The notes under the pieces were generated by a model. The model saw only the letters and a list, made by a program, of their open reading frames with translations, was not told the DNA's origin and made no database searches. From positions 1 through 64,000 of the forward strand of contig NZ_JAAQPH010000020.1 in the NCBI RefSeq assembly GCF_011683915.1: DNA of 64,000 nt, given 5' to 3'. Made by a program: the position numbers and the translations under genes. Within the stretch, counting starts at the first letter, position 1. Every line of letters begins with the position of its first letter. The DNA comes from Pelagibius litoralis. GTDB taxonomy: Bacteria > Pseudomonadota > Alphaproteobacteria > Kiloniellales > Kiloniellaceae. This document shows, one piece after another, positions 36,880-54,016 of this stretch.

Positions 36880-36921
36880 CTACCGCGGCACGCCCAGAGC
36901 GGCGGCGCGATCGGGTAGGGC

Positions 36922-36950
36922 AATGGGGCGCAATTTGATTGCGCCCCATT
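36922..36950 (+). terminator. hairpin after the DUF6634 gene
   Basis: A perfect 12-bp stem (AATGGGGCGCAA / TTGCGCCCCATT) with loop TTTGA, 42 bases after the stop. No T-run. Confidence 0.7.
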
Positions 36951-36961
36951 CAGCCGTCACA

Positions 36962-37891
36962 TCAGGAGAAGATGATGACACGTATCAAAGGACTGAATGA
37001 CGGCCCAGGTGAGAGCGCTGCCGACGTTGCATTGGCGCTTCCGGACATGATGAGTCGACCGTCCCGGCAGAGAATCTCGGAGGTTTTGGCGTGCAGCTTG
37101 TGGTCGTCACCTGCCGAAAGCTCTGAGATGGTGATGGGAATCACCTCAACCTGCGGGGAGGTCAGCCAGTTCGATCCTACCTGGCCCAAGACCGATCCGC
37201 CGGAATGGACGTGGAGGTGGACGGCGTCCAGGCCAAGGCGCTGGCAGAGGCGGTCGATCGCCGCGCCGGAGTCCCAGAAGGGCGCGGCGACTGAGAGGTG
37301 CAGGGCGCCGCCAGGCTCTTCTGCAAACTCAGTTAGCCGGGCGCCGATCGCCCCATCGAGGCTGTGAAGGATCCGGATCTCGCCGCTGTGCGGCTTCCTT
37401 GCCGCGGCTCGGGAAAGATCCTCGCTGAGGGCAAGGCAGCTGTCGCTGAGGCCATGCGCGACTTTGGGGCTTTCGGCCAAGCTCCTGAAAAATTGGGCCG
37501 CATCGTCGAATGCATCAGCGGCGAAGGAAGGGTGAAGGTGCTCGGCGAGCTCAAAGTTGCCGCCCCAGCCGTTGAAAGTGAGATTCCCCGAACCCACGAC
37601 GAGGTGGCAGTCGTCCTCGCCAAACAGCGCTGTTAGTTTGGGGTGAAAGGCGCCGGTTGTAACGGCGACAGGTTCGAGCTCGTAGTCCCGCCCGACTCGC
37701 TGTGCTCCTTGCTCCGAAAGCCCGGCGCGCACGCCCTGAAGGTCTGCGAGGATCAGGGCTTCCTTGCTGCCGCCGCGGACGAGGTTATCGAGGACGACGG
37801 ATTCGAAGAACGACAAGCTGAGCGCATAGGACGTAAAGACTGCTTTGCGCCAGGGATGAGCGGCAATTAGGTCTTCGGGCGTAAACGCCAA
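36962..37891 (-). CDS. phospholipase-D-fold protein (DrmC-like), 3'-truncated
   Basis: 309 residues. Two HKD-type motifs: HPKLTALF...VVGSGN (H83, K85) and HAKTSEIL...IMSGSAN (H267, K269), the active site of PLD-superfamily nucleases. It is the last gene of the leftward operon that includes helicase, methyltransferase and HNH genes, which fits DrmC of DISARM. Right after the second motif the family sequence ends: the tail SPGPSFSPLIRVIIFS is not PLD-like. The DNA beyond about 37015 on the other strand begins a different gene (36972), so the gene has been cut at an insertion or deletion edge. Function may be damaged even with both motifs kept. Confidence 0.82.
   Translation of the reverse strand: MAFTPEDLIAAHPWRKAVFTSYALSLSFFESVVLDNLVRGGSKEALILADLQGVRAGLSEQGAQRVGRDYELEPVAVTTGAFHPKLTALFGEDDCHLVVGSGNLTFNGWGGNFELAEHLHPSFAADAFDDAAQFFRSLAESPKVAHGLSDSCLALSEDLSRAAARKPHSGEIRILHSLDGAIGARLTEFAEEPGGALHLSVAAPFWDSGAAIDRLCQRLGLDAVHLHVHSGGSVLGQVGSNWLTSPQVEVIPITISELSAGDDHKLHAKTSEILCRDGRLIMSGSANATSAALSPGPSFSPLIRVIIFS
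36972..37015 (+). pseudogene. 5' stub of a rightward gene
   Basis: Ribosome site AGGAGAAG and ATG 36972 open MMTRIKGLNDGPGESA, after which the DNA becomes the antisense of the PLD gene. About 14 codons of an unknown gene remain, marking the breakpoint between the integrase-side DNA and the defence operon. Confidence 0.55.
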
Positions 37892-38069
37892 GTTAGTTTG
37901 CCTTACTGCTGCTTGTCGATCGAGATTCTACTTCAAAACGACCTCAGTCTGGTATGGCTGCTCAAAAGCCACGTAAAGACCGGCCGCTGCAGAGTTGTCA
38001 GATCATTTCTGCCCTAATTCCCAATAATCCAAGGTCATTGCCGTTGGGTCATTCACGGGCGCTTTCTTC

Positions 38070-38834
38070 TTAGGAGACGTCCGTTTTGTTGAAGTGATTC
38101 GTTCTGTGCCAGGCGAGCTTTTCCCTGTGCTGCGGCGTCAACGGAATTGGTTCACGCCATCGCAGTTCCGCGCGGGACGCTTCGCTTAGAGCAGGGGAGA
38201 ACTCTGGGCGTCCGTCGTCGTGGAAGGTGACGAGGCCGCGGTCGAAGGCGGCATCCCATAGGGCCGAGAGAAGCAGACCATTGTGCACGTCGAGCCGTTC
38301 GGCATCGCAGGAACAATCCTTCCAAGGAATGATGTGGGAGGCGCGCAAGAGCGCTGGGTCGGTGATGCCAGTGAGCGAGCATTGACCGTTCCAGTATTCC
38401 AGGAGGCTGGTGCGAAAAATGTCCTGCCCAATACGCTGCACGACAAGACGCTCGGTCTCGGTTGTTTTGGGGAGCCCCTGTACTTTTGTCTGGAACGTGC
38501 GAAGGGGCGCATCCGGAAGGCTTGCGGCAAGCCGGTAAATCCGAGGCAGGATCGAATAGAGTTCCCGCATTGCCCCAAACCGGAAGCGCGATAGGCCGGG
38601 GCCTTGCAGCGGGTCGGCTGCCAGGCCCATCTCCCTGATCACGCCTCCATGGTCGAGCGCGAGGAACCATGGGCCAGCCGGACCTTCGGCAGCCAGCCAG
38701 ATCGTTCCCTGCGCCGTCGTCGACTGAAACGCCGCCCACCCATCGGTCTCACCAAGCCGACGCCGAAAGCCATGCTGCTCAGCGGCCTTGCTGCACTCGG
38801 TTGAGACAATGAAGGATTGAGGGCTTTCGATCAT
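38070..38834 (-). CDS. HNH endonuclease of the DISARM-like operon
   Basis: 254 residues; the start ATG shares one base with the stop of the ATPase gene. A C-terminal HNH domain is clear: LLEYWNGQCSLTGITDPALL, RASHIIPWKDCS and LDVHNGLLLSALWDAAFDRGL. This is the layout of HNH nucleases such as those in type IV-like restriction enzymes; the N-terminal 130 residues (TIWLAAEGPAGPWFLALDHG) may read a modified or structural DNA feature. Its position after a Rad50-like ATPase suggests a paired nuclease. A 178-base gap separates it from the PLD gene. Confidence 0.9.
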   Translation of the reverse strand: MIESPQSFIVSTECSKAAEQHGFRRRLGETDGWAAFQSTTAQGTIWLAAEGPAGPWFLALDHGGVIREMGLAADPLQGPGLSRFRFGAMRELYSILPRIYRLAASLPDAPLRTFQTKVQGLPKTTETERLVVQRIGQDIFRTSLLEYWNGQCSLTGITDPALLRASHIIPWKDCSCDAERLDVHNGLLLSALWDAAFDRGLVTFHDDGRPEFSPALSEASRAELRWREPIPLTPQHREKLAWHRTNHFNKTDVS

Positions 38835-40795
38835 CAGAAGTCCATCGCAAACAACCGCGCCTCAGGTGGTGTGGACGAGAGCTGCAAACGCATCGCTTCG
38901 TGAGCACGCGCCTGCTGCGAAGGGGCTGTCGTCGTGGTGACGATATACTGGAAGGGCGGAGGGCTTGCCTTTCCTTCGAGGCTCAAAACGAAATCAAAGA
39001 GGTTCGAGTATATATCGGCATCCAGATCCGCTTCGCGCGGGCTGTCATGTATGAGCAAGGATGGCATCCTCGCCTTGCCATTCACAGAAAGGATCATTGC
39101 AGCCAAGTCGAATGCTACGATTTTGAACGACTCAACCGCAGCCGTAGACAGGCCGACGCCTCGGTCGAGGAGAATATCTGTGTGAAGACCATTTCCGTCC
39201 AAGCGGATTTTCCCCGAACACCCCTTGGGCATCAAGCTGGCTACGAGCTGCTGAAATACGATTTCCAGGTCACCGATTGCTGCCGTTACTCGCTCCTGTT
39301 CCAGCTTGATGGATTCGCGCAGGCCTTCAATTTTGTTTTCAACCGCATCGAGACGTCTGATCTCCGCGTCTCGTTTAACCATCTGACGGTCAAACCAATT
39401 CGCCTCTCTTACAAGCTCGCGTGCTGCGCTGACCTTTCCGTTGGTCTCGGACAGTTGCTTTTCAAGGCGCTCAAATTCCTTATCGACGGCCTCCAACTCC
39501 TGATCGACACGCGCAATCTCTGATCCGAGATTTTCAATCGTTTTGGGAAGGGCAGCTTGTTGCTTGATCAGCTCGGCCATATTCTGTTCCGCAAGTTTTA
39601 TGCGATTTCGAACCGCATCAAGGTCACACCGTTCGAGAGAGATTTTACATCCCTTCGCGAGCACATCATCGATGTTGACCTGACAGATAGAGCATCTGAC
39701 GACTACGCCACTTTCCAGACGAGCTTGTTCTGTACCCTGTTCCGCCCGCGCGGCGGAAATTTGCACTGGAAGCGCCGTATGTAGGGCTTGGGCGTTCGCC
39801 TGCTTTTCGAAGGCCTTGTTCCTTTCAGCTTGGAGCCGCTTTCTTTTTGCCTGCAAGTCCACCCCCGACGATTGACCCTTCGCGTGAGTCGCGCCGGTTG
39901 CCTTCGCCAATTCTTCGTTGGCTTTGTCGATCAACTCCATTCTGACGGTTTCGTCTGAAGGATCGCGATCTTTCGGCAAGGAAAGCCCCTCGCACAATTC
40001 TTCGAAGCGATGTCTTTGGAACCAATCAAGGTGATTGAGTTTCTGCTTGAGATCATCGCGCCCCCGCGCGAACGATCTGACTTGAGCGTTGGCCAAAACT
40101 TCAGCGGCCGACAGCGCCCCAATGGCGAGCCGAACGACCGCAAGCTTTGCGTCGAGAGAGAGCTCCTGCGCGGGTGACCCCGACCCAGACCGTTTTGATC
40201 GCCAGTCGAACACATCATCCAGTCGGCACTCCTGATCGCGGGCGAGCCATGCGAGCAGTACGTCCCAAACCTGGTCCGCTCTGAGATTGTCTGGCACCTG
40301 TTCGCGATAGTCGGTGCAGAACCGATCAGAAATCACGGGGGCTATCGTCGGTGGATAGGTTACGACCAGCAGCTGGTCGAACGAATCTTCGATGCGATCA
40401 GCGCGCACGGAGCGCGACGGCAGGTTCATGCCGATCGGACGGGTCACAATCCAACATTCGCCGTCGATCATGATCTCAGCGCCGACAAACCCGTCGGGCA
40501 GTTTTTGTTGCATCAGCGGGCGCTGGTCTTCGTTGGAAAAATGCCGCTCCCCGAGGCAATAACGGATCAGGCGGCAGAACGTCGACTTCCCGCTCCCATG
40601 CGGTGTGGCGCCCTTGCCATTGGTCGAAAGATCGGGCGACCAGATAATGTTGACGCCCGGGCGCAGCGAAATGTCACGAAGCAGCGTTGAGGCATCCTGC
40701 CAGAGGGCAATTCGCCTGACCCATAGCCGAGGCCCATGCTGGCCTTTCGGCATGGTGAACTCGATCTCTTCTCGCTGGAAAAAATCAGGCTGCAA
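38834..40795 (-). CDS. Rad50/SMC-like ATPase with zinc-hook motif
   Basis: 653 residues. A Walker A motif GATPHGSGKST (62-72) directly follows an SMC-like start (RLWVRRIALW...LRPGVNIIWSP). A long heptad-rich coiled coil (about 210-520) carries CSIC near 366-369, the CxxC of a Rad50-type zinc hook. The C-terminal ATPase lobe has LLIHDSPREAD (Walker B, near 580) and a following His-like switch. It is therefore a complete coiled-coil ABC ATPase that could dimerise over DNA. Overlaps the methyltransferase stop by 11 bases and the HNH start by one, so translation is coupled. It is not a standard DISARM subunit. Confidence 0.85.
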   Translation of the reverse strand: MQPDFFQREEIEFTMPKGQHGPRLWVRRIALWQDASTLLRDISLRPGVNIIWSPDLSTNGKGATPHGSGKSTFCRLIRYCLGERHFSNEDQRPLMQQKLPDGFVGAEIMIDGECWIVTRPIGMNLPSRSVRADRIEDSFDQLLVVTYPPTIAPVISDRFCTDYREQVPDNLRADQVWDVLLAWLARDQECRLDDVFDWRSKRSGSGSPAQELSLDAKLAVVRLAIGALSAAEVLANAQVRSFARGRDDLKQKLNHLDWFQRHRFEELCEGLSLPKDRDPSDETVRMELIDKANEELAKATGATHAKGQSSGVDLQAKRKRLQAERNKAFEKQANAQALHTALPVQISAARAEQGTEQARLESGVVVRCSICQVNIDDVLAKGCKISLERCDLDAVRNRIKLAEQNMAELIKQQAALPKTIENLGSEIARVDQELEAVDKEFERLEKQLSETNGKVSAARELVREANWFDRQMVKRDAEIRRLDAVENKIEGLRESIKLEQERVTAAIGDLEIVFQQLVASLMPKGCSGKIRLDGNGLHTDILLDRGVGLSTAAVESFKIVAFDLAAMILSVNGKARMPSLLIHDSPREADLDADIYSNLFDFVLSLEGKASPPPFQYIVTTTTAPSQQARAHEAMRLQLSSTPPEARLFAMDF

Positions 40796-43700
40796 GGCGG
40801 CCCTCCTGAATGAATGGGAGGATGTTGGCCGACACCCGCGTCAATCCCTGTTCCAGATCGACGGCCTGAAGCCTCGACCACGCGAACAGCGCCCGTCCGA
40901 CTGCCGGGTTGTCAACGTTCAAGGTTGATTGGTCGAGCCTCTGGCCCGCGCTCCATTCGTCTCCGTTCGGCGACACATCCAGAACGGCCGACGACACAAG
41001 CTCGTTGAAGGCCGCGCCCCACGCCGCGTTGGTTGGCGGCTCCAATTGCGTCACGCCGGACGGATGCGCCACGATCCGTCGCCACTCCTGGCGATCTGCA
41101 TCAGAGAGGAAGCCGTCGAGTAGGCTCGGTTGTAAGCAGGCCAGCGTCGCGAGACGCACACGGCGGACGTCGGAGGGCTTCGGCAAAATGCCGACCAGCG
41201 CCCGAAGCTGGGTACGGACGCGGTCACGCTCATCGATACCTTGCGGCCATGCCCAGACGTCAGCGGGAATTTGCTCAAGTGGCGGGAGTTGGATGGGTTG
41301 CGGGACGGGCGTCCCAACAGCGTCAGCGAGGCTAAGTTCGACGAAGGTGCCATCCGCTTCCATCCGGTCCCAAGCGGCGAGGACGAGGCGGCGGGTGCGG
41401 TATTCGCCGTGCTGGCGGATTTCCTTTTCCTTCAGGACGCGGAAGGTCTCCGAAGGGTAGTCGGGGCCCTTCACGTCGGCGGGGTCGAGGATGTAACGCA
41501 GCTCGTCGCGGGTCAGGCCATAAGCGCGGGCGTAGAAAGCGTCGAGATCGGCGCGCAGGTGGGCGCGTCGATCCTCGTCCCAGGCGAAGGGCGGGCCGTA
41601 ATGGCCCAGATCACGGGCGAAGGGGGCGAGGCTGTGCGAGGTATAGGTGAGTTCCAGCACCTTCGGGGTGATGAAGGCGAGGCGGGGTTCAGTGTAATAG
41701 GAGGGATCAAAGATTGGCAGTTGCTTCATCAGACTAAGCGTAAGGTGGGTTCCACCCAAAAGCTGACGGGCACAAAAATCCAACGGAATCGAGTTGAAAT
41801 TGGCCATGAGGCAAGCGCCATCCTGGCGATTCCGACGTGGAAATATTAGAGTGGCGGTATGGCTTACTGCAGTCCTCGGGAGGATCGAGGTGATCGTAGT
41901 TCTCTCATTTGAAGCGTTGGTAATTTCTCTGACAGCGAGAAGCCAGCCGCTCTTCCAGCCCTGGCCCACGAGCCTCTTTTCTATTTCAGAGAGAGGCACC
42001 CAGTATCGCGGAAGCGACTCGCAATCGATGCATTCCTTTGCTTCCAGATCAATCGATTGAGCCTGATCAGTGTCAAAAGGATAGGTTGTCCATCGGTGGT
42101 CGAATAAATGAAACGTCTTTGCTTCATAGAGAGGCGCATAGTTGACGCTATCGCTTTCGCATATTGCTGCAGGAATTCCGTGACCCGACGAGACTAACTT
42201 CAATTCGATTTTCTTCTGTGCACTGACATTGTTTTCGCTGGGAAGAGAGGCAAACCAATCGGCATCTTCACCCATATTCCAGAGCCTTGTATGGAAATCT
42301 ATCTGCCACGGGTTCCCCTTTTGATCTCCGTCTAGAATAAAGGTTGCTGAATTCGAGAAAATCTTTGCTGTTAAGGTAGCATCTCCCCGCGTTCTGAAGA
42401 CCGGTGCAGTGCGAGTGTTTGGGTTGAGCCTAGAAATTGTCTCGGCTGAAAGCGTGAAGCTCCTCTCTGGATCGGTGATCTGAGACGGTTCGCTCAGAAA
42501 GAAAGCAAAGCGAGCTTCATATTCATCGTAACCTATTGTTAACAGGGAAAATTTGAACATGCGGTGGACACTAGGGAAGATCGGCAACCGGTTATCAAAA
42601 TCCACTAGGTGTGCCAAGCGCTTGCCCTCAACAAGCGAAGAAAAGAATTCCGCAGTGCTCGCATCCGTGGCTATACCAGTAGGTACGATCACCCCGGCAT
42701 GGTCACGCGCAAGATTGGCGAAGAGTTCTGCAAAAAGGGCGTAGGTGTTCACTTTCCCGCGTGCCGTTTTGGCAAAACGGCCAGAAGCCCGCGCAAACTC
42801 GTTCCCAGCCTCCGAAGTCCTTACGGCTATCTGAAATGCTGCAAATGCGGGAGGGTTTTCGCGTTCTAGTACTTCGATTGCGCGCTTTCTAGCCGCCCCG
42901 ACAAGAGACGCAATTTCCGGGTGACGGGCGGCAAAGTACTCTCTCTCGGATAGCTGCATGACTTCCCACGGCGGGTTGCCCAACACCACATTGAACCCGC
43001 CGCGTTGCATCACATCGGGGAACTCTAGCGGCCAGTGAAAGGCGCGGGCGCGGCGGGCGGCCTTGGGGGCATCCACCATCGCCTGGCGCATCTTGCCGTG
43101 ATTGAGGGCCATCCACAGTTCCTCGGTCGTCGGCACCGTGCGGGCCGAGGCCCCCGCCGGTGCGCCGCCGACCTTGGGCAACTGGAAGGCCGCGACATAG
43201 AGGTTCGCCGCCGCCGTCGCCCGGACAAAGGCCTGCCCCTTGCGTAACTCCCTGTACCGCGCGGCCTTGGCCCCGATCTGCTCCACCGTATCCTCGGGCA
43301 GGTCTCGGAAACCCGAGAAATCCAGCGCCAAGGGCTTCATCGCCGGCATGGCGACCTGGCCGGTCCCGAAGTCGAACCCGCCCTGGCCCTTTTTTGCGTC
43401 CCTGTTGGCCTGCAGGTAATATTTGGCCGTGTCCTTGTCGTCGCCGGTCAGCGGCTTGTAGGCGGCATCAGGGATGCCGTCTCGCAGCACCTTCAGGTCG
43501 AAGACGCCGAGCAGCGCATCGCCGCAGCGGATCTGTGCGTCGAAGAAGCCAAGGGGAAGGCCGGGATCCACGGTCTCGATCCAGAGCGCGACCTTGGTCA
43601 GTTCCACTGCCATCGGGTTGCGGTCCACCCCGTGCAAACAGGATCGCGCGACATCGCGCAGGGCATGGCGGAAATCGGCGAGCGACGGCGTGCCATCGGC

Positions 43701-45239
43701 GCGAATACGGGCAAGGCGCGTGGCGATGCGGCGGGCAGCGGCCAGCAGGAAGTGGCCTGAGCCGCAGGCCGGGTCGATGGCCGAGAGTTTCAGGAGCGCC
43801 TTCGCGGGATCGTCCGCCTCGGCCTCGGTCCTGTCGAGCACGGGGTCGAGCGCAGTGTCGAGCAACGCCTGAACGAGGCTGTCGGGCGTGTAGTAGGAGC
43901 CGGTGGTCTTGCGCTGGTTGCCCTTCTGCTCGGCGGCCTCGGAGGCGAAGAGCAGCGTCTTTCCGTCATCGCCCAGCTGGGGCTGGAGCTCGAGGAGGGA
44001 TTCATACACGGAGCCCAGCTCCTCGGTCTCCATCGCGCGCCAGTTCACCGGGACCATGCCGCTTTTGTCGGAGAGCCAGGAGAGGCGGTAGAGCGCCTCC
44101 ATGAAGGCGCGGTTGCGCAAGTGGGCGGTTTCCAAGTGGGGCAGTTTGTCGTCAGAGAAGAGGCCGCTGAGGGCCGGGAGGGCGAGTGCCTCTTGCCCGT
44201 GGGCCAGCGCGCGGAAGACGATCTTGATACCCTCATAGCGGTCGTGGTGCTTGTCCCACGAGGCAGCGCGGTAGCATTGGGCGCGCAGGGCGGCGAGGCT
44301 GTAGCCTTCGGCATAGAGCTTGCGGGCGTCGGGCTTAGCCTCTTCGGGGTGCAGGAGGTTGCGATCCTCGGCCACCATGAGGAAGATCAGGCGATAGACG
44401 AGGCGCAGGAGCTCGTTGAACCATTCGGTGAGGTTGACCTCGCCGGACTTCAGCCTGGTGGCGAGATCCGGGTTGGCTTCCAGAAACCCGGAGCCGAGGA
44501 GCTTCAGCGCGATCTGGACCTGATCGGCCAAGCGGTCCCGCGCCGCCTCGCCCTCGCGCGACCCGGCCTCACGCCAGCGTTCAAGAGCGCAGTCCGTTGC
44601 GGGCGTGCCTGCCGCGCCAAAACGGCTGCGGTGGATCATCAGCCACAGGATCGCGAAGGAGGCGGCATCCTCGTTGGCAAAGATCTGGGCAAGATCGGCT
44701 TCGACATAGGCCGGACGGGTCAGTGACGCATTGTCCCGCATCAGGCGAATCAGGACACCGTTGGTGACGAGGCCCCACAGCGCTTCGTCGTGATCGTTCA
44801 GGTGATCCTGGAGGGCGAAGGCGGGCGAGCGGGACCGGTCGGTCGACAAGGTCGGGCTGCGGCGATCGAGCTTCTCGTCGGCTGGCGGGACGACCAGGAT
44901 CGGCACACGCCCTCCGGCGGTGAACGACAGCATGCCATCGCCCGGAGCGAGCTCGTGGAAGCCGAAGGTTTCCTTCAGGAACTCGCGGACAAAACGCCGG
45001 GTCGCTTCGACGGACGGGTTCTCCATCCTGGCGAAGGTGTCGAAGTGGGACTGGCCGACGCGGAAAGCGGTCGAAATCTCTTCCCGGATCGTCAGCCCCT
45101 TTCGGATGCCGTAGCTCTCCCGCGTGTCGGCATCGTCCTTCGGCGCCGAAATCTGCGCGACCATTGCGGGCGCGATGAGGTTGCCCTCCAGCGTGAGCGA
45201 GGGCCACGCGGACATGTCGGTGATGGGTTTGCGCGCCAT
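40785..45239 (-). CDS. large adenine-specific DNA methyltransferase (DrmMI/PglX-like)
   Basis: 1484 residues. SAM-binding motif I SAIDPACGSGHFLLAAARRI (about 487) and the catalytic NPPW (GFNVVLGNPPWEVMQL, about 755) mark an N6-adenine methyltransferase of the large type with an inserted domain, as in PglX and DrmMI. The N-terminal 480 residues (helical, HRSRFGAAGTPA, AEDRNLLHPEE) and the C-terminal 600 (target recognition and helical regions, e.g. REITNASNERTTITSILPRT) match that organisation. It would mark host DNA so that the other subunits spare it. Starts three bases after the SNF2 helicase stop. Confidence 0.9.
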   Translation of the reverse strand: MARKPITDMSAWPSLTLEGNLIAPAMVAQISAPKDDADTRESYGIRKGLTIREEISTAFRVGQSHFDTFARMENPSVEATRRFVREFLKETFGFHELAPGDGMLSFTAGGRVPILVVPPADEKLDRRSPTLSTDRSRSPAFALQDHLNDHDEALWGLVTNGVLIRLMRDNASLTRPAYVEADLAQIFANEDAASFAILWLMIHRSRFGAAGTPATDCALERWREAGSREGEAARDRLADQVQIALKLLGSGFLEANPDLATRLKSGEVNLTEWFNELLRLVYRLIFLMVAEDRNLLHPEEAKPDARKLYAEGYSLAALRAQCYRAASWDKHHDRYEGIKIVFRALAHGQEALALPALSGLFSDDKLPHLETAHLRNRAFMEALYRLSWLSDKSGMVPVNWRAMETEELGSVYESLLELQPQLGDDGKTLLFASEAAEQKGNQRKTTGSYYTPDSLVQALLDTALDPVLDRTEAEADDPAKALLKLSAIDPACGSGHFLLAAARRIATRLARIRADGTPSLADFRHALRDVARSCLHGVDRNPMAVELTKVALWIETVDPGLPLGFFDAQIRCGDALLGVFDLKVLRDGIPDAAYKPLTGDDKDTAKYYLQANRDAKKGQGGFDFGTGQVAMPAMKPLALDFSGFRDLPEDTVEQIGAKAARYRELRKGQAFVRATAAANLYVAAFQLPKVGGAPAGASARTVPTTEELWMALNHGKMRQAMVDAPKAARRARAFHWPLEFPDVMQRGGFNVVLGNPPWEVMQLSEREYFAARHPEIASLVGAARKRAIEVLERENPPAFAAFQIAVRTSEAGNEFARASGRFAKTARGKVNTYALFAELFANLARDHAGVIVPTGIATDASTAEFFSSLVEGKRLAHLVDFDNRLPIFPSVHRMFKFSLLTIGYDEYEARFAFFLSEPSQITDPERSFTLSAETISRLNPNTRTAPVFRTRGDATLTAKIFSNSATFILDGDQKGNPWQIDFHTRLWNMGEDADWFASLPSENNVSAQKKIELKLVSSGHGIPAAICESDSVNYAPLYEAKTFHLFDHRWTTYPFDTDQAQSIDLEAKECIDCESLPRYWVPLSEIEKRLVGQGWKSGWLLAVREITNASNERTTITSILPRTAVSHTATLIFPRRNRQDGACLMANFNSIPLDFCARQLLGGTHLTLSLMKQLPIFDPSYYTEPRLAFITPKVLELTYTSHSLAPFARDLGHYGPPFAWDEDRRAHLRADLDAFYARAYGLTRDELRYILDPADVKGPDYPSETFRVLKEKEIRQHGEYRTRRLVLAAWDRMEADGTFVELSLADAVGTPVPQPIQLPPLEQIPADVWAWPQGIDERDRVRTQLRALVGILPKPSDVRRVRLATLACLQPSLLDGFLSDADRQEWRRIVAHPSGVTQLEPPTNAAWGAAFNELVSSAVLDVSPNGDEWSAGQRLDQSTLNVDNPAVGRALFAWSRLQAVDLEQGLTRVSANILPFIQEGRLAA

Positions 45240-45242
45240 GGC

Positions 45243-48011
45243 TCAAACCTCACTCGGCATCAGGACGAAGAGGCCGATCACGTCCGGCGGCGTGACGGCC
45301 TCGACGGTGACGCGCGAAGCGGAACCCGCAGCGGCGCGAAGGCGGGCATGGTCCTGGGCGAGTTCGTCGGCGCGTGACCGCACGAACCCGGTCAGCGGCC
45401 CCTCCAGCAGGGCCGGGAGCTCCTCCTTCGCTCTGTCTATGAAGCGTTCGCGGGCCGAGGGAGCAAGGTCGGCGGCGGCTGGCGTATTGAGAAGTTCCCG
45501 CGCCGGTTCGCCCGTGGCCGTGATCGTGTTCCCCTCGATCGCGACGAGGGCGGCCTCTTCAGCAAGAAGGAGGCGCTCTTTGCGGGCGTGGATCGTCAGT
45601 TTGTACCGGATGCGGAGCAGCACAAGCCGGGTCATCCGCTGCACGGCTGTCGTCGGCCATGCGCCGACCCGACCGACGCCCAGACCCGACAGCGACTCGG
45701 GATCGAGTGACGCTTCCACCAGAGCTTCGGCCAGCGTCGCCGTCAGGGGATGCGTCCGGGTCAGGAGCGCTGTTCCCGAGGGAGCAGGCTCCGCCATTGC
45801 GAGGCGGACGGAGCCCGTCAAATTTCTCTGGGACAGCCGCTCCTTCAATGCGCTGTCGAGCGCGTGCACATGCGCCAACAGCAAGGATTTCCGGGGTTCC
45901 AGCGGTACGCCGAAGCGCGACATCGCGCGCTCGATGAAGAGCTTCACGTCGGCCGGGGAACCCAGCAGCGACTGCGCCTTCTCCCACTCGGGCGCGACTT
46001 CCTGCGGCTTCATCGCGTTTTGCGCAAAACGAGCCCGGGATTTCTTCTCGTTTTCGGAAGCATCCCGCCAGCGGGCCTCCATGGCCCTGGTTCCATCGTC
46101 GAGCCGGAGATCAAGCGCCAGCTGCCCCTTGTCGCCACCCCGCCGCAACATCATCGAAGCCATCAGCGCATCGGTAACCGGTCCACGCTCGTCCGGGAGC
46201 GGGACAGTGACACCTGTCGTCTTCCGAATTTCTTCGGCCTTGCGGAGGATAACATCCAGAACAGCGCCATCGATGGCGCTGTCTGGCGAGAACATCATGA
46301 TCGAATGCACCAGTTCGGCTGGCTGACCAAATCGATCCACCCGACCTTCTCGCTGCTGGTGCCGGGTCGGATTCCATGAAAGGTCGTAGTGGACGACGGC
46401 ATCGAAAAGCTGCTGGAGATTGATGCCCTCCGAAAGGCAGTCCGTCGCGACCAGGATGCGTTGGACCTCCTTCTCGCCTTCGACCGGTCCCATGTCGGCC
46501 ACGCGATCACGGCGCTCGTCCGGCGTCAGAACGCCGGTCACGGCCTCGATGATCAGCTTCGGAAAGGCCTTGCGCAGTCCATCGCGGACATGCTCCGCAG
46601 TGGCCAGATAGCGGCAGAAGACAACCGGGTTGGCCCCCTTCTTGATCAGCGGCGTCAGTGCATCGATCAACGCCGACAGCTTCGGGTCGTGTTTTCCGAC
46701 GAGTTCCTCGGCACGTTGGACCAAAGACAGCAGCGCCGGGTTGGTCTCGAAGTTAGAACTCGGCTCAAGGTCCACCGCATCTTCATCATCCCCATCTTCG
46801 TCATAGATCTGGGGTTCGAGACGTTCGCTTTCGTTGGAGGCCCGGTTCCGAAGAGCGCTCAGGGCGGCTGCCGGCGAGGAGCCGACGCATCGCATCAGAG
46901 CCAGGGTGCCCCAGAACGCAAGACGACGCTCGCGCTGACCGGTGCCTGCCTTGGACACGACGCCGAAGCAATAATCGAGAACGGTTTCCTGGAAATTGAG
47001 GTGATCCCGCGAGAGTCTATAGGGGAACTCGGTCGTCTCGTGCTTCGCAAAGGCCCGGTCCTCTCCCCAGTCGCTGGAGATGAGATCGATGCGACGGCGC
47101 TGAACGAAGTGACGGGCGAGACGCTCGCGATATCTGGCACCCTCGAAGTTCATCGACCCGAAGAAGGGGTCGACTAGCGAAAGAAGCCGCGCAAAAGCCT
47201 CTTCGTCTCCCGAGTGTGGCGTAGCGGTCAGCATGACGATCCGCCGCTCGGGATCTTGCGCCAGTCCCGACAGGAGCGCGAACCGCTGCTGCTTACCCTT
47301 GTGGGTGCCCACACAGGCATGGGCTTCGTCGACGATCACGAAGTCCGGGCAGGCGCGGGCAAATCCCTCCCGGCGCCTTTCGGCTTTGATGTAGTCGAGA
47401 CTGACCACCGTGTGGGGGTAGGCATCGAACAGCGTCTGGGCGAGAGGCAGGTTACGCTCGAGTCGCGCGGCCGTGCCCGAGGTGACGGCGACTACCTCTA
47501 TCCCGAATCTAGTGCGGAGCTCAAGAACCCACTGCTCGACCAGGTGTGGCGGACAGAGCACTGAGAAGGCCTCAACCTCGCCACGGTCCATCAGCTCCCG
47601 CAGAATGAGGCCCGCCTCTATGGTCTTTCCGATGCCGACGTCATCCGCAATGAGAAGGCGGGGCACCTGAAGCCGTAGAGCCATCAGGAGAGGAACCAGT
47701 TGGTATATCCGTGGCTCGAAGGCGAGCTGAGTTGCCGAGCGAAAGGGACCTGCCCCACGCCGAAGAGTCAGACGCATGGCATCCGCCAGCAGGGCGGCCT
47801 TGGCCTGAACGGTCATCGCAGCATCGGCCGGCAAGTCGAAGCGGGCCGGTTCTACCGGGAGAAGCTCGAGCTTCGGATCCAAGATAACCGTGTCGTTTTC
47901 ACTGCCAGAAAGTGGCCGCAGAGCCAATATACCGTCGCGAGGGGACGGAAGTGCTACCCATTCGCGACCGCGAGCACGGACCAGGTCTCCAGGGGCGAAA
48001 TGCAGGGTCAT
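45243..48011 (-). CDS. SNF2-family helicase (DrmD-like)
   Basis: 922 residues from ATG 48011; the frame is open further upstream but that part is antisense to nothing real and lies inside the previous gene. Walker A ADDVGIGKTIEAGLILREL (about 122), IVDEAHACVG (DEAH, about 225), MLTATPHSGDEEAF, and the C-terminal lobe FCRYLATAEHV ... YDLSWNPTRHQQREGRVDRFGQ. This is the RapA/DrmD type of SNF2 ATPase. It starts four bases after the large helicase stop. DISARM class 1 contains such a DrmD protein next to an adenine methyltransferase, exactly as here. Confidence 0.9.
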   Translation of the reverse strand: MTLHFAPGDLVRARGREWVALPSPRDGILALRPLSGSENDTVILDPKLELLPVEPARFDLPADAAMTVQAKAALLADAMRLTLRRGAGPFRSATQLAFEPRIYQLVPLLMALRLQVPRLLIADDVGIGKTIEAGLILRELMDRGEVEAFSVLCPPHLVEQWVLELRTRFGIEVVAVTSGTAARLERNLPLAQTLFDAYPHTVVSLDYIKAERRREGFARACPDFVIVDEAHACVGTHKGKQQRFALLSGLAQDPERRIVMLTATPHSGDEEAFARLLSLVDPFFGSMNFEGARYRERLARHFVQRRRIDLISSDWGEDRAFAKHETTEFPYRLSRDHLNFQETVLDYCFGVVSKAGTGQRERRLAFWGTLALMRCVGSSPAAALSALRNRASNESERLEPQIYDEDGDDEDAVDLEPSSNFETNPALLSLVQRAEELVGKHDPKLSALIDALTPLIKKGANPVVFCRYLATAEHVRDGLRKAFPKLIIEAVTGVLTPDERRDRVADMGPVEGEKEVQRILVATDCLSEGINLQQLFDAVVHYDLSWNPTRHQQREGRVDRFGQPAELVHSIMMFSPDSAIDGAVLDVILRKAEEIRKTTGVTVPLPDERGPVTDALMASMMLRRGGDKGQLALDLRLDDGTRAMEARWRDASENEKKSRARFAQNAMKPQEVAPEWEKAQSLLGSPADVKLFIERAMSRFGVPLEPRKSLLLAHVHALDSALKERLSQRNLTGSVRLAMAEPAPSGTALLTRTHPLTATLAEALVEASLDPESLSGLGVGRVGAWPTTAVQRMTRLVLLRIRYKLTIHARKERLLLAEEAALVAIEGNTITATGEPARELLNTPAAADLAPSARERFIDRAKEELPALLEGPLTGFVRSRADELAQDHARLRAAAGSASRVTVEAVTPPDVIGLFVLMPSEV

Positions 48012-48015
48012 CACA

Positions 48016-51000
48016 TCAGTCCTTGAGCATCGACAGCATCGCAGCTGGAACGCCGGCGGAGATGTCCGGTGGCAACTCGAATAGTGACCAGCCCTTGCCT
48101 TGGGCGATGTCGCGCACCGCGGTCGCGACTGGAGCAGTGGTAGCAGCGACGAAATGGCTGCGCCAGACGAACTGCATTTCCTGCTCGCTGAAGCTGACGG
48201 CAGCAGCATCAGGCTCCGGGATACCCGCATCCTTAAATGCGGTCTTCCATCCTTCAGGTTCTTCGGAATGCGTCCGAGCGGTGGCAAGAACGACCTCACC
48301 CCTTGCTAGGTCGATCAGGAGCTGCTTGGTCTCGTCGTTGGTGCGATCGATCAGCTCGTGGTCGGGCTGGTTGTAGTAAGATAGGAGGCAACGATAGCAA
48401 CCGCGGACACAGGCCTTATCCCGATCGACAAGGATCGCAGCGTCGCCTGCAGCGATTGCTTCGTCGACCTTGTCAAAATGCATCAATGTGAGCACTTCCC
48501 GTGCCACCCGGCCGAGCGCCGCCGGATCATCCACTAGGCGGCTCAGCACGCCTGCACCGCCTTCCGTCGCTTCGTAGGCAAGAATCGACCGACGATTGTC
48601 GCGGGCCGGCAATGGCTCTCCAAGGATCTCGCCTTCTTCCAGCTGATAGACGACCTCAATTCCACGCAACAAAGCATGGTGCACGGTTGCAATGGTTTCA
48701 GGAGCATAGGCCTCTGGTTCGCGGAAGCGGAACAGCAGGGCGTTCTTGTGGTCGCGAACTATTGGGACGATGCGAACAGGTCTGATCGCATCCGGCGACA
48801 AGTCGACGTCCGGATCTTCGTCTTCCGCTTTGGCCCAGTAGCCGGTGCGAGGGTCGATGTTAAAACCGAAGACAGTCTGGTTCCTGCGCCGCTTCAGTCC
48901 CTTGTTGATCCGGCTGATCTCGGCGCTGTTGGCGTACTGCAGCCAGAGTATGGTGCTCTCGCCGCAGCGAAAATCTGCCTCCGTGATCTGCGTACGGCCA
49001 TCCCGTTTCGGCCAGGAAAAAACCGTCTGAATGTCAAAACCCTGACGTACACGCTCTTCGTCATTCGCTGTGATTCGCTCAGTCGGGGCAGCTTCAACGT
49101 TGTCGATCCTGAGTGTCCGCTGCACCGGGACCTCACCCGCCATCGGATTGTTGCAGGCGTGACAGCGCTCGACCTCGCCCTCATGACAGGCACCGCAGCT
49201 GGAGCAGATGTAAATATCCTTCGTTGCAAGCTCCGACCCGTCGCTCGTCCGAACTTCCGGCGGCAGCTTTGCCTTCATGACTCTATAAGCGCGGCCTTCG
49301 TGATAAATTAGGCTGCGAGGTCCGAATTCGGAAATGGCGAGGAACCTCGCGCGTTGCAGGAACGAACCGCTCTTTCCTTCACCGGGTATAAATGCGTAGA
49401 GAGGCAGCCTGGGGAAATTATAACCGGGCAAGAAGCCCTCAGTTGCAAGATACCGGTAGGAGTAGAAATCCGAACCGCTCGTGGCTCGACCCTGTTCAAG
49501 GATAGCAATCTGATCGCTTGCCTGCATCTGGGCGGCCTTGATCTTGCGTCTGTCGGCACCGGAGAGTCCGGTGATCTCAGAGCGGGCATTGGCCTCCTGC
49601 AGTTGGGTGCGCGCTGAGTTGTATAGTTCCCGCCAACGGTCGAAGGCTTGATTGAGTTCCTCGGGTGCGCGCATGGCGACTTCGAGCACAAATTCCTCGG
49701 GGTCCCCCATCCAAGCCGGCTTTACACCATCGACTGCGGCCAGAATCTGATCGAGTACTCGTCTCATCGGCGCCCGCACCTTCGTTACTAGACTAGGTCG
49801 GCTTATGACATCGAGGATTTCTTGCTTCAGCGGGTAGTCAGCCTGCTTAAGATCGAGAGTTTCAGGAATGTCCGGCGAGAGTGCCAACTTTGCCTCCGCC
49901 AGCCAGACTGCATGGAGGTGCGACCGGACTAACTCCTCATTGGTAATGTCTAGCGCCGGCGGGCGAACGACCCCGGCAACCATGTCGTTGCGGCGCTCAA
50001 AGAAATACTGGTCATGAGGAGACTGGGCCGCACAGTAGGTCACAATAACTGCAGCCTGGCCAGACCGCCCTGCCCGGCCCGCGCGCTGAACGTAGTTCGC
50101 GGGCGTGGGCGGAACGTTGCGAAGATAGACCGCATTCAGTGCCGATATGTCTACGCCGAGCTCCATGGTAGGCGAGCAGAAGAGGGTGGGTAGAAATTGG
50201 TCTGACTCACCCGCTGCCTTGATCTCCGCAGTATTCTCTTCGAGGTTTGCTCTGTCATCATCCTCGTAGCGGAACCGCCATTCCCGCCACTCACGTTGTC
50301 TTTGCGAGACCTGAGCCGTGTGCTCGCGGCCTTCGAGCCCCCAGTAAGTGCTTCGGCCACGTGTCAGATCGCGAGCGATTGCATTGTATAGGTCGTGGAA
50401 GTAGCGGTTTCCCAAAGCAGCGCCGCTGTGGATTGCTTCTCCAGGAACCAAGCGAATGGCTGACGGAGAAAGCCGCCAGCCATGAAGATCGGCCTCAACT
50501 TCAACAGGAGACACCAGGCCCTCGCGAGCCAGGAGCTCCATGATGCCGGTCATAACAGTTAAGTAGTCGGCTCTGTTGAGTTTTGTGCCGATTAGACTTT
50601 TGCGATTGATAAGCCGCCCAATGCGGGAATTGTGGCCAGCGCGAACGATGGTCTGCTCTTCTCTCAGCCCTGTCCGATTTCGGCCCGGGGCTTGAAGGAA
50701 GAGAGTCGTCCTGCTTCTTGGCATCTCTTTCTGATCAATGGCCCAGGGAGCGCGAAGCAAGTTGCGGGATTTCTGAGCGACAGTGTCAAGGACCGTCAGA
50801 TCAAGGGCCTCGGTGCTCACGGCAAGGCCCTCTAGGGTCGCACCGAGGATCTCCCTGAGGACCTTCTTTCTCGTTGCAAATTCAAGAGTGCCAAGTTCCG
50901 GCAAGATTGTAGCAAGGCTCTCCTTGTCCTTCGCTATCTCACCGAGACCAATAAACTCGACGTCGATAAGCTTCAGCACTGATAGGCTCGGATTGGTGTA

Positions 51001-53184
51001 GCGCCAACCGCGGCGTAGGTCCGTCCAGACCCTATGCGCCAAGACCTTGGCCAAAGCGCGTTGCGCGTCCTCTCGAATGACTGCGCCAGCCTCGGGATCC
51101 AGCATCCAGTGGATTCGTGCCTCCTTGTTCGAGGCGGTGAACCCAAGCGCCTTCAAGACGCGCAGGCCGAACTCATCCTCTGTCAATCCAGAATCATCGG
51201 CATCGAGGACAGCACGCAGAATGGCCCCGCGAAGGAGACTAACGAAAAGGAAGTCGTTGAAATGGCCGGCTTGAAGAGCAGCGTCCTGGCGATTGTCAGT
51301 GAAGCCAAGAAGCTTGCGCTTGTCCTCGGGAACGCCGCTGTTGTCGCCGTTCATCCATTCGAGCGCAGTGGATACCAGCAGAGTGGTAGCGGAACTGCGC
51401 CCTTCGCCAGAAAGGCCGGCCAATTTTGTTCGTTCCCGCATGCTGGGGTGAGGTTGATCGAGACAGCAGAGACAAAAGCCAAATCGCCCGGGAATGAACC
51501 AGAATGTCTTTCCAGATGGATGAAGTCGGCCGTCAGGGCTCACAGTCACATGCTGAGGCACGCGAGCCTTTCGGTTCGAGCGGAGGCGTTCGACCCCATT
51601 CCGCTCCTCACGCCAGTCTTCAGGATAGGACTCAAGCTCACCGGTAAAGGCGTACTCGGGATCTTCACTCCCGGTGGGTGTCAAGTAGCCGGCTTGATCT
51701 TCATCGTGGTCGTCGAGCGGCGTATCGTCGATATTGCGTGGTAGGAAGTGGACGCCATCCTTGTCATCGGTCTTGGTCACCACATGGACTTCATGACCAC
51801 AATCCCTGCAGAATCGTGTGGGATAGAGGCGGTTGCCTGGCGCATCGGGATCTTCAAGCTGTCCCTCGAACAGGACTCGTCGGGGACGCGCGGTAAGGGT
51901 TGTGAAGATCTCGCTCGCACCAGAGATAAACCTGTGCAGCTTGAAGGCAAGGAATGCCGCCGACCCCGTTCCGCCCCGTTCCGTCTCCGGTAGGCTAATG
52001 CGCGTCAGAAACCGCTCAAGGCTGATTTGGCAGATTTCTACATCCACGCCGCTATCTTCTGATAGCAATTCGACCGCTTTGCTAAAGGGGATGGGCTTCT
52101 TGCGTTTCAATTCCTGATTATCGTCAAGGCCAATTGCAAGTTCGACCCAAACCGCCAGAGGATGTTGGTGCAGTAGCTCGTCTGAAAGGCGTTCAGGAAG
52201 GTCGTTCGTCAAGATCTCCGCGAGCTTCGGTTTTACGTCCTTGAGCTTCAGCAAGTCGTCCGTAGCGCGTTCTAAGGACTCGTCGATGACCGATTCAGGG
52301 CCGATCGGGGTTCCGAACAGGCGTGAAGCGACATCCGCGACCGCCTGAACTCGCCCGGCGCCCGCTCCTTCATTGGACATAGTGGCAGAGGTTCCGATGC
52401 AGATCGGAGCGCCGTCTGGATTACAGCGGTTCCGCAAGCGTCGAACAAGAATGGCTACGTCGGCACCTTGCCGTCCCCGGTACGTGTGCAGTTCATCGAG
52501 GACGATGAATTCGAGCCCGTTGGCGTTTTCGATAACCTTGGAATCGAGATCGTCCTGACGCGTGAGCAGCAGCTCAGCCATCATGAAGTTCGTGAGCAGG
52601 ATATCCGGTGGATCGTCGGCAATAGATTGCCGCTGATTCTGGCTTTCTTGGCCAGTATAGCGCTTTACAACAGGCTTCAAATTGTCCGGTAGGTCCGACT
52701 GCGCGATAAAACGCTCAATTTCTTTGATCTGGCTATTGGCCAACGCGTTCATCGGATAGACGATGATAGCTGTCGTCTTACGCGGTCGCCCGCTCTTGCG
52801 AGCTCTGACGATGGCATCAACAATCGGCACAAAGAAGCAGAGCGATTTTCCTGATCCGGTGCCGGTGGTCACGACGTAGCTTTGACCCGCACGAGCCTTG
52901 GCGATGGACTGCGCCTGGTGTCGGTGAAACTGAATAGGGTCTGCGCCGAACCGGAATATCTTGCCAGTGGCTTCGTAAAGATTGCCGGAATGAACCAGTT
53001 CGTCGATGGTTGGTCCGGAGAGAAATCGCGGGTTCAGCGAGAGTAGGGCATCGGGCCAGAAGCGCCCGGCATCATACTGGCGTTCGACCTCAAAGCTCAG
53101 ATCGCCAGCACGAATGGTAGTAAAAGATCGAGAGAAACGGGCGTAGGAATCGATCAAGTGGTGTTCGAATTCGAAGGCCTTCAT
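48016..53184 (-). CDS. large SF2 helicase with DUF1998-type C-terminus (DrmA/DrmB-like fusion)
   Basis: 1722 residues from ATG 53184 (a TTG one codon earlier is possible), with AGGA eight bases upstream. N-terminal helicase lobe: HRHQAQSIAKARAGQSYVV, TTGTGSGKSLCF (about 106-117), LDELHTYRGRQG (DExH, about 228) and GTSATMS. The second lobe has MELGVDISALNAVYLRNVPP and YVQRAGRAGRSG (about 1031). A zinc ribbon CSSCGACHEG...CHACNN lies near 1325-1345, and the C-terminus has CVRGCYRCLLSYYNQPDH (about 1591), the cysteine signature of DUF1998. In DISARM the helicase (DrmA) and the DUF1998 protein (DrmB) are separate; one long chain here would combine them, as in MrfA and DruE. First gene of the operon. 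Confidence 0.9.
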   Translation of the reverse strand: MKAFEFEHHLIDSYARFSRSFTTIRAGDLSFEVERQYDAGRFWPDALLSLNPRFLSGPTIDELVHSGNLYEATGKIFRFGADPIQFHRHQAQSIAKARAGQSYVVTTGTGSGKSLCFFVPIVDAIVRARKSGRPRKTTAIIVYPMNALANSQIKEIERFIAQSDLPDNLKPVVKRYTGQESQNQRQSIADDPPDILLTNFMMAELLLTRQDDLDSKVIENANGLEFIVLDELHTYRGRQGADVAILVRRLRNRCNPDGAPICIGTSATMSNEGAGAGRVQAVADVASRLFGTPIGPESVIDESLERATDDLLKLKDVKPKLAEILTNDLPERLSDELLHQHPLAVWVELAIGLDDNQELKRKKPIPFSKAVELLSEDSGVDVEICQISLERFLTRISLPETERGGTGSAAFLAFKLHRFISGASEIFTTLTARPRRVLFEGQLEDPDAPGNRLYPTRFCRDCGHEVHVVTKTDDKDGVHFLPRNIDDTPLDDHDEDQAGYLTPTGSEDPEYAFTGELESYPEDWREERNGVERLRSNRKARVPQHVTVSPDGRLHPSGKTFWFIPGRFGFCLCCLDQPHPSMRERTKLAGLSGEGRSSATTLLVSTALEWMNGDNSGVPEDKRKLLGFTDNRQDAALQAGHFNDFLFVSLLRGAILRAVLDADDSGLTEDEFGLRVLKALGFTASNKEARIHWMLDPEAGAVIREDAQRALAKVLAHRVWTDLRRGWRYTNPSLSVLKLIDVEFIGLGEIAKDKESLATILPELGTLEFATRKKVLREILGATLEGLAVSTEALDLTVLDTVAQKSRNLLRAPWAIDQKEMPRSRTTLFLQAPGRNRTGLREEQTIVRAGHNSRIGRLINRKSLIGTKLNRADYLTVMTGIMELLAREGLVSPVEVEADLHGWRLSPSAIRLVPGEAIHSGAALGNRYFHDLYNAIARDLTRGRSTYWGLEGREHTAQVSQRQREWREWRFRYEDDDRANLEENTAEIKAAGESDQFLPTLFCSPTMELGVDISALNAVYLRNVPPTPANYVQRAGRAGRSGQAAVIVTYCAAQSPHDQYFFERRNDMVAGVVRPPALDITNEELVRSHLHAVWLAEAKLALSPDIPETLDLKQADYPLKQEILDVISRPSLVTKVRAPMRRVLDQILAAVDGVKPAWMGDPEEFVLEVAMRAPEELNQAFDRWRELYNSARTQLQEANARSEITGLSGADRRKIKAAQMQASDQIAILEQGRATSGSDFYSYRYLATEGFLPGYNFPRLPLYAFIPGEGKSGSFLQRARFLAISEFGPRSLIYHEGRAYRVMKAKLPPEVRTSDGSELATKDIYICSSCGACHEGEVERCHACNNPMAGEVPVQRTLRIDNVEAAPTERITANDEERVRQGFDIQTVFSWPKRDGRTQITEADFRCGESTILWLQYANSAEISRINKGLKRRRNQTVFGFNIDPRTGYWAKAEDEDPDVDLSPDAIRPVRIVPIVRDHKNALLFRFREPEAYAPETIATVHHALLRGIEVVYQLEEGEILGEPLPARDNRRSILAYEATEGGAGVLSRLVDDPAALGRVAREVLTLMHFDKVDEAIAAGDAAILVDRDKACVRGCYRCLLSYYNQPDHELIDRTNDETKQLLIDLARGEVVLATARTHSEEPEGWKTAFKDAGIPEPDAAAVSFSEQEMQFVWRSHFVAATTAPVATAVRDIAQGKGWSLFELPPDISAGVPAAMLSMLKD

Positions 53185-54016
53185 CAATGATTCCTACTCA
53201 TGCTGTTCACAACCCCGCCGAATACGATTGTCTCCCGGTGGAGCGGAACGATTCGCTGATCTGTGGGGTGGCGTACAGCTGAGCTTGCGTCGTGCCCTAG
53301 GCTTTACGCCTGTCCGACGTTAGCGCCGCCCCTCACGGGAGACACAAGCTAGGCGGTCGCAGGCACGGCACCCAGTACGTGCGCTGCGCCTCGGACTCCG
53401 CATGCAGTTATACTCACCGATTCGCTTTCCCGACTAGTCCTTGCCACGACCCCACGTTGAGAGAATACCAGCTTCTGGCGGGAGATGGGACCCTGCAGAT
53501 CTCGCAGGGATCTCTATCAGCTCATCAAAAGGTGGCGCGCAAAGACCATTTTTGATTGTATAGATATTTATGAAATCTATCTACGGAAGCAGCGTCGGTG
53601 GTCGCGTACCCCGCTCCTCTTCGATCTCGTGCCCTACAAGGCAATCCAGGTGCTCCGCGAATGTGGGCGGATGCGCGAGTATGGGCCTGGCCTGTTGCAG
53701 CGGCTCCACCGACTGCGGTATCGGCTGCGCTGCCAGCAGTGCAATCGAGGCGACGGCTTCGCCATCACCATCATCCGCACTCCGGGACGCGGCGACAATC
53801 GCCAGAAGCGGGCAGAGCGGCTGTTGGTCGCTCGGCCCAGGTGAATCGGCCGTGCAAGGGGACGGCGCGTCTCGCCGCGTGGCCGGCGCACGCCACTGGC
53901 GGCTCTTTCAGGGGAGATCGCCTGACTTGCGATATGGGGAACTTATCGAAAGTCAGCGGCTGGGGCCTCGACAATGAGGGGAATCCGAAGCGGCCACTTA
54001 GTCAAGAGTCGCGTCC
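53185..54016. other. long gap upstream of the defence operon
   Basis: 832 bases containing the presumed promoter region of the helicase gene and the left copy of a 26-base direct repeat (53942-53967). Open frames in 53480-53850 on both strands show no recognisable family; a decayed mobile gene is possible. Confidence 0.5.
53942..53967 (+). repeat. 26-base direct repeat, left copy
   Basis: CTTATCGAAAGTCAGCGGCT, GGGGCC. The same sequence with two changes is at 55742-55767. The two copies bracket the HEPN-like gene and the amber-interrupted gene. Confidence 0.75.

Follow-up and report, generated by a model that had tools for sequence, protein, structure and literature searches.

We examined a 64,000-nucleotide stretch of DNA from Pelagibius litoralis (contig NZ_JAAQPH010000020.1, positions 1 to 64,000, from an assembly of 6.03 Mb in 64 contigs), hereafter the window, in which six leftward open reading frames (ORFs) lie at 36962-53184. 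An earlier note, made from the sequence alone, had described them as a single six-gene, DISARM-like defence operon, either a variant or a separate system. All six frames are open, and the spacing given in that note is exact, with gaps of 4 bases between the first helicase and the SNF2 gene and 3 bases between the SNF2 gene and the methyltransferase, overlaps of 11 bases (methyltransferase and ATPase) and 1 base (ATPase and HNH), and a gap of 178 bases between the HNH gene and the last frame. The genes and regions of the locus are as follows.

48016..53184, minus strand: YprA-family SF2 helicase with an MZB/DUF1998 zinc domain, 1722 residues (PADLOC DruE1 270 bits, DrmA 61 bits; Pfam DEAD, Helicase_C, MZB).
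End of the 48016..53184 gene, minus strand: last ~95 residues of the helicase, a putative decayed Vsr/DUF559-type nuclease domain (C-terminal comparisons).
45243..48011, minus strand: SNF2/RapA-like helicase, 922 residues, BrxHII/DrmD-like (PADLOC PDLC02853 632 bits, DrmD 252 bits).
40785..45239, minus strand: PglX-like N6-adenine methyltransferase, 1484 residues (Eco57I 63.8 bits; DrmMI 235 bits; tail statistics; identity profiles).
Within the methyltransferase: exchanged middle at residues ~700-1200, presumed to serve target recognition, and a C-terminal tail of ~180 residues linked to the ATPase.
38834..40795, minus strand: Rad50/Lamassu-LmuB-like coiled-coil ATPase, 653 residues, an optional module (LmuB 76.5 bits, PDC-M68B 51 bits).
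38070..38834, minus strand: HNH nuclease, 254 residues, proposed effector in trans (HNH_2 46 bits; match to PDB 6YEX; found in 64/75 loci).
36962..37891, minus strand: truncated PLD-family gene, 309 residues, outside the system (0/75 loci; relatives of 783-784 residues; ZacB/DrmC-like by profile).

For the first five genes, profiles and motifs agree with the identities first proposed, namely an SF2/DUF1998 helicase, an SNF2 protein, an adenine methyltransferase, a Rad50-like ATPase with a CxxC hook and an HNH nuclease. The YprA-family helicase carries Walker A, DELH and motif VI, and the SNF2 helicase DEAH; the methyltransferase has DPACGSG and NPPW, the ATPase has Walker A and Walker B besides its hook, and the HNH protein has ASHIxPW and HNGL. 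Searching the six proteins against defence profile libraries (for PADLOC, the best 25 hits of each) returned DruE1, PDLC02853, DrmD, DrmMI and LmuB, and no single named system. The SNF2 helicase scored 282 bits against the NCBIfam DrmD model, under that model's cut-off of 610, the ATPase fell just under the cut-off of Pfam DUF2326, and the curated NCBIfam cut-off was reached by none of the six proteins (hits at E <= 0.001), so that the system cannot be identified from annotated names.

The note had allowed that the cluster might match a published one, and for a three-gene core this was borne out: according to passages of a recent preprint, ARMADA Type I generally consists of a YprA helicase, a BrxHII-like helicase and a PglX-like methyltransferase, and its helicase ends in a Vsr nuclease predicted to be active (Bell et al. 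2025, PMC12458937). As a side observation, the PADLOC model labelled DpdE (PDLC02853) matches the SNF2 protein at 45243-48011 over nearly its full length, and PADLOC may therefore call ARMADA SNF2 genes DpdE.

To place the operon among its relatives, we used 75 loci gathered by one methyltransferase scan of genome contigs, in which the six proteins were then run by tblastn. The gene order was the same, and the ATPase and HNH genes, whose absence from every close homologous locus the earlier note had contemplated, were found in 34/75 and 64/75 loci, respectively. The 11 loci without HNH (L008, L021, L028, L040, L057, L060, L064-L067 and L075) all end less than 1 kb past the last detected gene. 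Such a gene cluster is far beyond chance, and the proposed single operon stands for five genes; it does not stand for the PLD gene, which none of the 75 loci carries. In 31 of the 32 loci with the ATPase before HNH, the edges of the two tblastn matches lie 3-34 bases apart. Further loci came from plasmids and from genome searches with the helicase at E <= 1e-100, a threshold reached in 14/398 genomes of the phylum and 7/385 of the class, in 14/146 genomes of the phylum of a cyanobacterial genome, and in 8/48, 8/248 and 8/321 genomes of further sets (these counts include the genome at each set's centre, and the sets overlap in part). HNH-bearing hosts include Alphaproteobacteria, Acidithiobacillus caldus, Acinetobacter soli, a Campylobacterota plasmid and a Synechococcus symbiont; viral contigs did not match the helicase patterns. 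The conjugative plasmid pISP0 of Sphingomonas sp. MM-1 (L110), for one, carries the smallest form observed, which has just the helicase, SNF2, methyltransferase and HNH genes. On this gene content and conservation, the operon is a real, widespread defence-type system; it is related to DISARM, but it is not DISARM, its core being that of ARMADA Type I, of which it is a variant, and the DISARM name is wrong.

The HNH gene is a member of this operon. The conserved residues of its product are kept, and the histidine of ASHIxPW, which we take to be the catalytic one in HNH families, is present in 99% of 78 aligned HNH rows. No recognised domain was found by Pfam in the first ~120 residues; the HNH half matches the solved EVE-HNH endonuclease VcaM4I (PDB 6YEX; E 4e-15 over 127 residues), which its authors' passages describe as modification-dependent (PMC7897488).

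The presence of HNH is tied to the state of the helicase C-terminus. When the C-termini were aligned, HNH-less loci of Deinococcus, Rhodococcus, Paraburkholderia and Chroococcidiopsis kept the PDF and DGxxH motifs of the Vsr domain, and HNH-bearing loci had lost both, together with ~10 residues. Among 110 helicase C-termini, 71 were dead with HNH, 28 were intact without it and none was intact with it, the remainder being 10 dead C-termini without HNH seen and one partial case. This count was drawn from 123 loci, leaving out 13 in which the helicase was absent or its best ORF was shorter than 1300 residues (L005, L008, L009, L038, L057, L059, L063, L064, L066, L071, L075, L078 and L113); five of these nevertheless show a helicase C-terminus, all dead, three with HNH (L005, L009 and L113) and two cut (L066 and L075). 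Two duplicates remain among the 110 rows, L091 of L023 and L070 of L077 (same scores). The relationship also held in loci fetched after the rule had been formed, where all five that were non-duplicate and judgeable (L131, L133, L134, L139 and L142) agreed with it. Seven later loci were not judgeable (L132, L135, L140, L141 and L143-L145), the C-terminus of L143 being dead by eye although a loose pattern flags it, and L136-L138 were left out of this later set as lying on the same contigs as L018, L010 and L024.

The helicase C-terminal domain is best read as a decayed nuclease rather than an unrelated tail, because profile comparisons suggest its homology to intact Vsr through an intermediate group: the domain of the window's clade matches that of a distant HNH-bearing group with probability 98.9, and the distant group matches the intact domains with probability 95.9. 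The intact domain itself scores above the Pfam cut-off for DUF559 in 4 of 6 queried sequences (one was below the cut-off and one unmatched). The C-terminal domain of the window helicase had no Pfam match, and that of L093 none of the DUF559 kind; when an intact Vsr C-terminus was used as a sequence query against solved structures, no Vsr structure came up.

How often the change occurred was assessed on trees. In a tree of 78 rows (omitting every second genome-contig locus, with L032, L072, L011, L012, L061, L033 and L042 kept or added, and omitting L023, L077, L091 and rows under 1600 residues), the dead rows cluster together with support 90, except L082 and the partial L115, and 3 changes are required. 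In a tree of 29 rows under a mixture model there are 2 changes, and holding all dead rows together raises the likelihood by 8.06 and is not rejected (p-AU 0.68). Several independent swaps from Vsr to HNH were therefore set aside in favour of the single grouping. Most simply, one swap took place and its product then spread widely by horizontal transfer, which is assumed rather than proven.

Several observations weigh against an exchange of Vsr for HNH. The first is the set of 10 dead rows in which no HNH was seen in the fetched stretch. Seven of these end less than 1 kb past the methyltransferase. In L082 the HNH gene lies across the origin of a circular plasmid (118 bits), and in L111 the helicase stands alone, with the other operon genes not seen. 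In L088, from Kozakia baliensis, an IS21 element (24899-27281) directly follows the methyltransferase, the Vsr domain is dead and no HNH match was found, and because of this combination the copy is probably without a nuclease. Likewise, the Streptomyces locus L115 combines a partly changed Vsr with no HNH, and 7 of the 28 intact rows are weak negatives, the other 21 having at least 2.5 kb in view past the methyltransferase. The direct profile match between the domain of the window's clade and intact Vsr is weak (probability 56.7). Finally, the swap was probably one event, such that the strict rule does not amount to many independent observations; it is strong as a description, and rests on about one event. 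Weighing these points, we regard the locus as probably a nuclease-swapped variant of ARMADA Type I.

The same near-singular event, together with the resemblance of the HNH half to the modification-dependent VcaM4I and the auxiliary HNH nucleases that passages of PMC12839542 describe around BREX and BREX-related systems, would also suit a different account, in which the HNH protein plays an auxiliary or back-up role, for instance as a modification-dependent nuclease, Vsr decayed independently of it, and the DNA is cut through some unrecognised activity of the helicases or of the methyltransferase. An auxiliary gene of this kind is hard to reconcile with its absence from all 28 intact-Vsr rows, with the tight ATPase-HNH spacing in 31/32 loci, and with the natural occurrence of a four-gene form bearing HNH alone, and we consider this account unlikely.

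The ATPase follows a different partner. It occurs with HNH in 37 rows and, in 6 rows and also in L134, with an intact Vsr and no HNH, while 34 rows have HNH without it. Its presence coincides instead with an extension of the methyltransferase: where the tail could be measured and the sequence ran on for more than 2.5 kb past it, the residues after position ~1300 number 154-201 in all 40 loci with the ATPase and -7 to 37 in all 48 without. Of the 45 loci matched by a profile of this tail, 43 carry the ATPase, and the remaining two (L021 and L057) stop at a contig end. The profile misses 5 of 48 ATPase loci (L093, L094, L097, L099 and L100), whose tails are equally long and have diverged. A tree over 64 rows shows 14 changes of the ATPase; when independent pairs were taken from it, a change of the ATPase came with a change of the tail in 12 of 12 (p 0.0005), and HNH was the same on both sides in 10-11 of the 12. 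All later loci judgeable for this rule (L131, L134, L142 and L130) agree.

The lack of tails without an ATPase suggests that tail and ATPase are physically partnered; the tail and the ATPase gene are also neighbours and may travel as one piece. As judged from these associations, the ATPase is tied to the methyltransferase and not to the nuclease, as an optional module that accompanies either nuclease. Compared with solved structures, its profile matched chiefly coiled coils; Rad50 scored no better than E 0.027 and SMC no better than E 0.042. Since PDC-M68B and LmuB profiles match the ATPase, and passages of PMC12839542 describe dyads of an OLD-type ATPase and HNH near BREX, one might instead view ATPase and HNH as a separate two-gene defence unit (of the PADLOC candidate PDC-M68 or the ATPase-HNH dyad type) carried as cargo in an ARMADA operon. 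The two genes, however, occur independently, as the rows with only one of them and L134 illustrate, and a single cargo unit is therefore rejected; the ATPase, moreover, goes with the methyltransferase tail. We consider cargo of this kind very unlikely.

A further exchange is apparent inside the methyltransferase. We compared six locus pairs per 100-residue bin. In L006 and L037 the helicases are 96-100% alike per bin and the HNH halves 86 and 98%, and the methyltransferases are 97-100% identical over the first 800 residues, after which identity falls to 72, 42, 35 and 38% and returns to 81%. The methyltransferases of L032 and L011 behave similarly, with 91-100% from 100 to 800, followed by 63, 41, 42, 47, 65 and 88%. 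Those of L058/L047 and L053/L024 drop to 22-34% and remain low, L022/L029 are less close overall, and L043/L049 are the weakest case, dropping only past 1100 with a lowest value of 51%. Across 60 loci, the median methyltransferase identity to the window is 95 at 400-600, 32 at 1000-1100 and 89 at 1200-1300. Exchange of the target-recognition domain of restriction-modification enzymes would give such an identity pattern. The identity profiles indicate that the middle segment is exchanged between conserved flanks, and we presume this segment to be the target-recognition region.

The last of the six genes appears to have a separate history. Its product has 309 residues, against ~784 in full-length relatives, and we rejected it as a sixth subunit in favour of a truncated remnant of a separate two-gene unit, being absent from 75/75 loci. 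Relatives occur in 23 plasmid records; the two inspected have 783 and 784 residues, with a second gene after each, and in the stretches of ~12.9 kb around them nothing is annotated as belonging to ARMADA. In PADLOC the two match ZacB, PDC-M27B and, at low score, DrmC; no relevant paper was found for the name ZacB. On other plasmids these relatives look like an undescribed two-gene unit. Only on a Rhizobium gallicum plasmid (L112; L146 321-4577) do they keep company with ARMADA, the PLD gene and its partner (ORFs of 866 and 551 residues) lying ~0.4 kb from the helicase, divergently on the opposite strand, which speaks for neighbouring systems over one operon.

That plasmid, the weak DrmC likeness of the PLD piece (26 bits) and the similarity of two core genes to DrmD and DrmMI are what a six-gene DISARM variant with PLD as its nuclease could draw on. 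Against this, the PLD gene is truncated in the window and missing from every relative among the 75 loci, its counterpart on the plasmid stands on the other strand with its own partner gene, the operon has no separate DrmB, and its helicase scores 270 bits against DruE1 and 61 against DrmA. A DISARM operon of this form is in our view highly improbable, and the PLD nuclease claimed as a subunit in the earlier note is withdrawn.

Other genes were seen in and around these operons. The slot between methyltransferase and HNH, occupied by the ATPase in the window, often holds a protein with an M78/IrrE-type metallopeptidase domain (a cluster of 10 loci, one scanned; L009, L026, L035, L037, L039, L041 and L045), and elsewhere CBS-domain proteins (3 loci, one scanned), HD-domain proteins (L029 and L035, one scanned) or a GmrSD enzyme (L022). 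In 14 loci (one scanned; for example L011, 1170-2045) the gene immediately upstream of the helicase encodes a WYL-domain protein, possibly a regulator of the operon. In Acidithiobacillus caldus (L083) a VapC-type toxin-antitoxin pair (21109-21743) sits between the SNF2 and methyltransferase genes. At two intact-Vsr loci, L084 (Deinococcus radiodurans) and L114 (Nocardioides), McrBC-type genes come next, an association mentioned in passages of Bell et al. 2025 (PMC12458937). In the window, the operon is accompanied by an ISL3-family transposase (31626-33557), a phage-type integrase (35257-36519) and a DUF6634 gene (36565-36879), and upstream of the helicase lies an ORF of 239 residues without a Pfam match (54017-54736). 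An island between tRNA-Arg (57631-57707) and the integrase was unsupported for lack of matching boundary repeats: no exact 14-base match of 57560-57780 was found elsewhere in the window, and no 18-base repeats between 29001-40000 and 53001-64000.

Combining these results, we propose a working model for the operon. The methyltransferase would mark host DNA at a motif set by its exchangeable segment, and unmarked incoming DNA would be engaged by the two helicases, which may translocate along it or unwind it. The HNH protein would join this complex, possibly by way of the dead Vsr domain, and cut the DNA in trans; the ATPase, where present, could dock on the methyltransferase tail and add DNA sensing or gating. 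The system would thus most likely be a restriction-modification-like defence that cuts unmethylated invading DNA with HNH in trans, and an exchange of nucleases has a precedent in BREX-related systems, as described in passages of PMC12839542. More tentatively, and a little short of an even chance in our estimation, the dead Vsr may be kept as a docking site for HNH, turning a one-chain helicase-nuclease into a split effector, and an exchangeable cassette of recognition segment, methyltransferase tail and ATPase may alter both the target and the manner of its recognition; ARMADA I would then be a modular platform whose nuclease and sensor are interchangeable.

The two sequence rules (dead Vsr with HNH, and methyltransferase tail with ATPase) point to the probable cutting protein and to the proteins that are probably in contact, so that a gene list becomes a mechanism open to testing. 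The rules further suggest that the nuclease and the sensor can be exchanged separately in helicase-based defence, in a system whose pieces present profile libraries would label DruE, DpdE, DrmMI and LmuB. Within the titles, abstract starts and passages covered, supplements lying outside that scope, the literature on DISARM, Druantia, ARMADA, YprA/DUF1998 and Lamassu/DUF2326 described no HNH at this place; in the main text of PMC12458937, apart from its supplements, the sole occurrence of 'HNH' is in the title of a reference, and 'Lamassu' is absent.

The locus was also compared with known systems. None of the six proteins is a gene for Dpd 7-deazapurine DNA modification, the rest of the window having been searched in part. 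DruE, of Druantia, is the helicase's best PADLOC profile, but the window has SNF2 and methyltransferase genes and no other Druantia profile among the matches listed. Similarly, LmuB of Lamassu is an SMC/Rad50-like ATPase with a coiled coil and CxxC, but no LmuA is among the matches listed for the six proteins, and the window's ATPase is linked to the methyltransferase tail. VcaM4I shares the HNH half, whereas the window protein has some 120 N-terminal residues without a recognised domain and its gene sits in an operon.

BREX-related (BR) systems, as described in passages of PMC12839542, resemble the locus in combining an SNF2 helicase with an N6-methyltransferase, and in that an in-cis nuclease can be missing, with other nucleases, including HNH, nearby; the authors call these compensatory in BR loci lacking the fused nuclease. 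BR systems, however, are built on a DUF499 ATPase, and the words YprA, MrfA, DrmA and DISARM are absent from that paper; neither PglZ nor a DUF499 ATPase is among the Pfam, NCBIfam and PADLOC matches listed for the six proteins.

DISARM Class 1 has a related SNF2 helicase, a related methyltransferase and a YprA-family helicase, but the locus has a one-chain helicase with DUF1998/MZB inside, no DrmA/DrmB split, no functional DrmC-type PLD, and extra HNH and ATPase genes. The single chain had been taken for a fusion of DrmA and DrmB, an explanation that falls away, as helicases of the YprA family usually are single chains with a DUF1998 of their own, the consistent split in DISARM being the exception (passages of PMC12458937). 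ARMADA Type II, the only type for which those passages report phage protection tests, each of its four genes being needed, begins with SNF2 and methyltransferase and ends with a GajB-like helicase carrying a RelE domain; the order in the window differs, and no such gene is among the six.

By gene set and order the locus is closest to ARMADA Type I, with the YprA helicase first, then the SNF2 helicase and the PglX-like methyltransferase, no GajB-like gene after them, and DEAD and MZB in one ORF of 1722 residues. It differs in its decayed Vsr (motifs lost, no Pfam match), in the presence of an HNH gene and in the optional Rad50/Lamassu-like ATPase. Whether an active Vsr is required for membership is unstated in the authors' passages (PMC12458937), and since an active Vsr is absent here, we file the locus as a variant of ARMADA Type I rather than a typical member.

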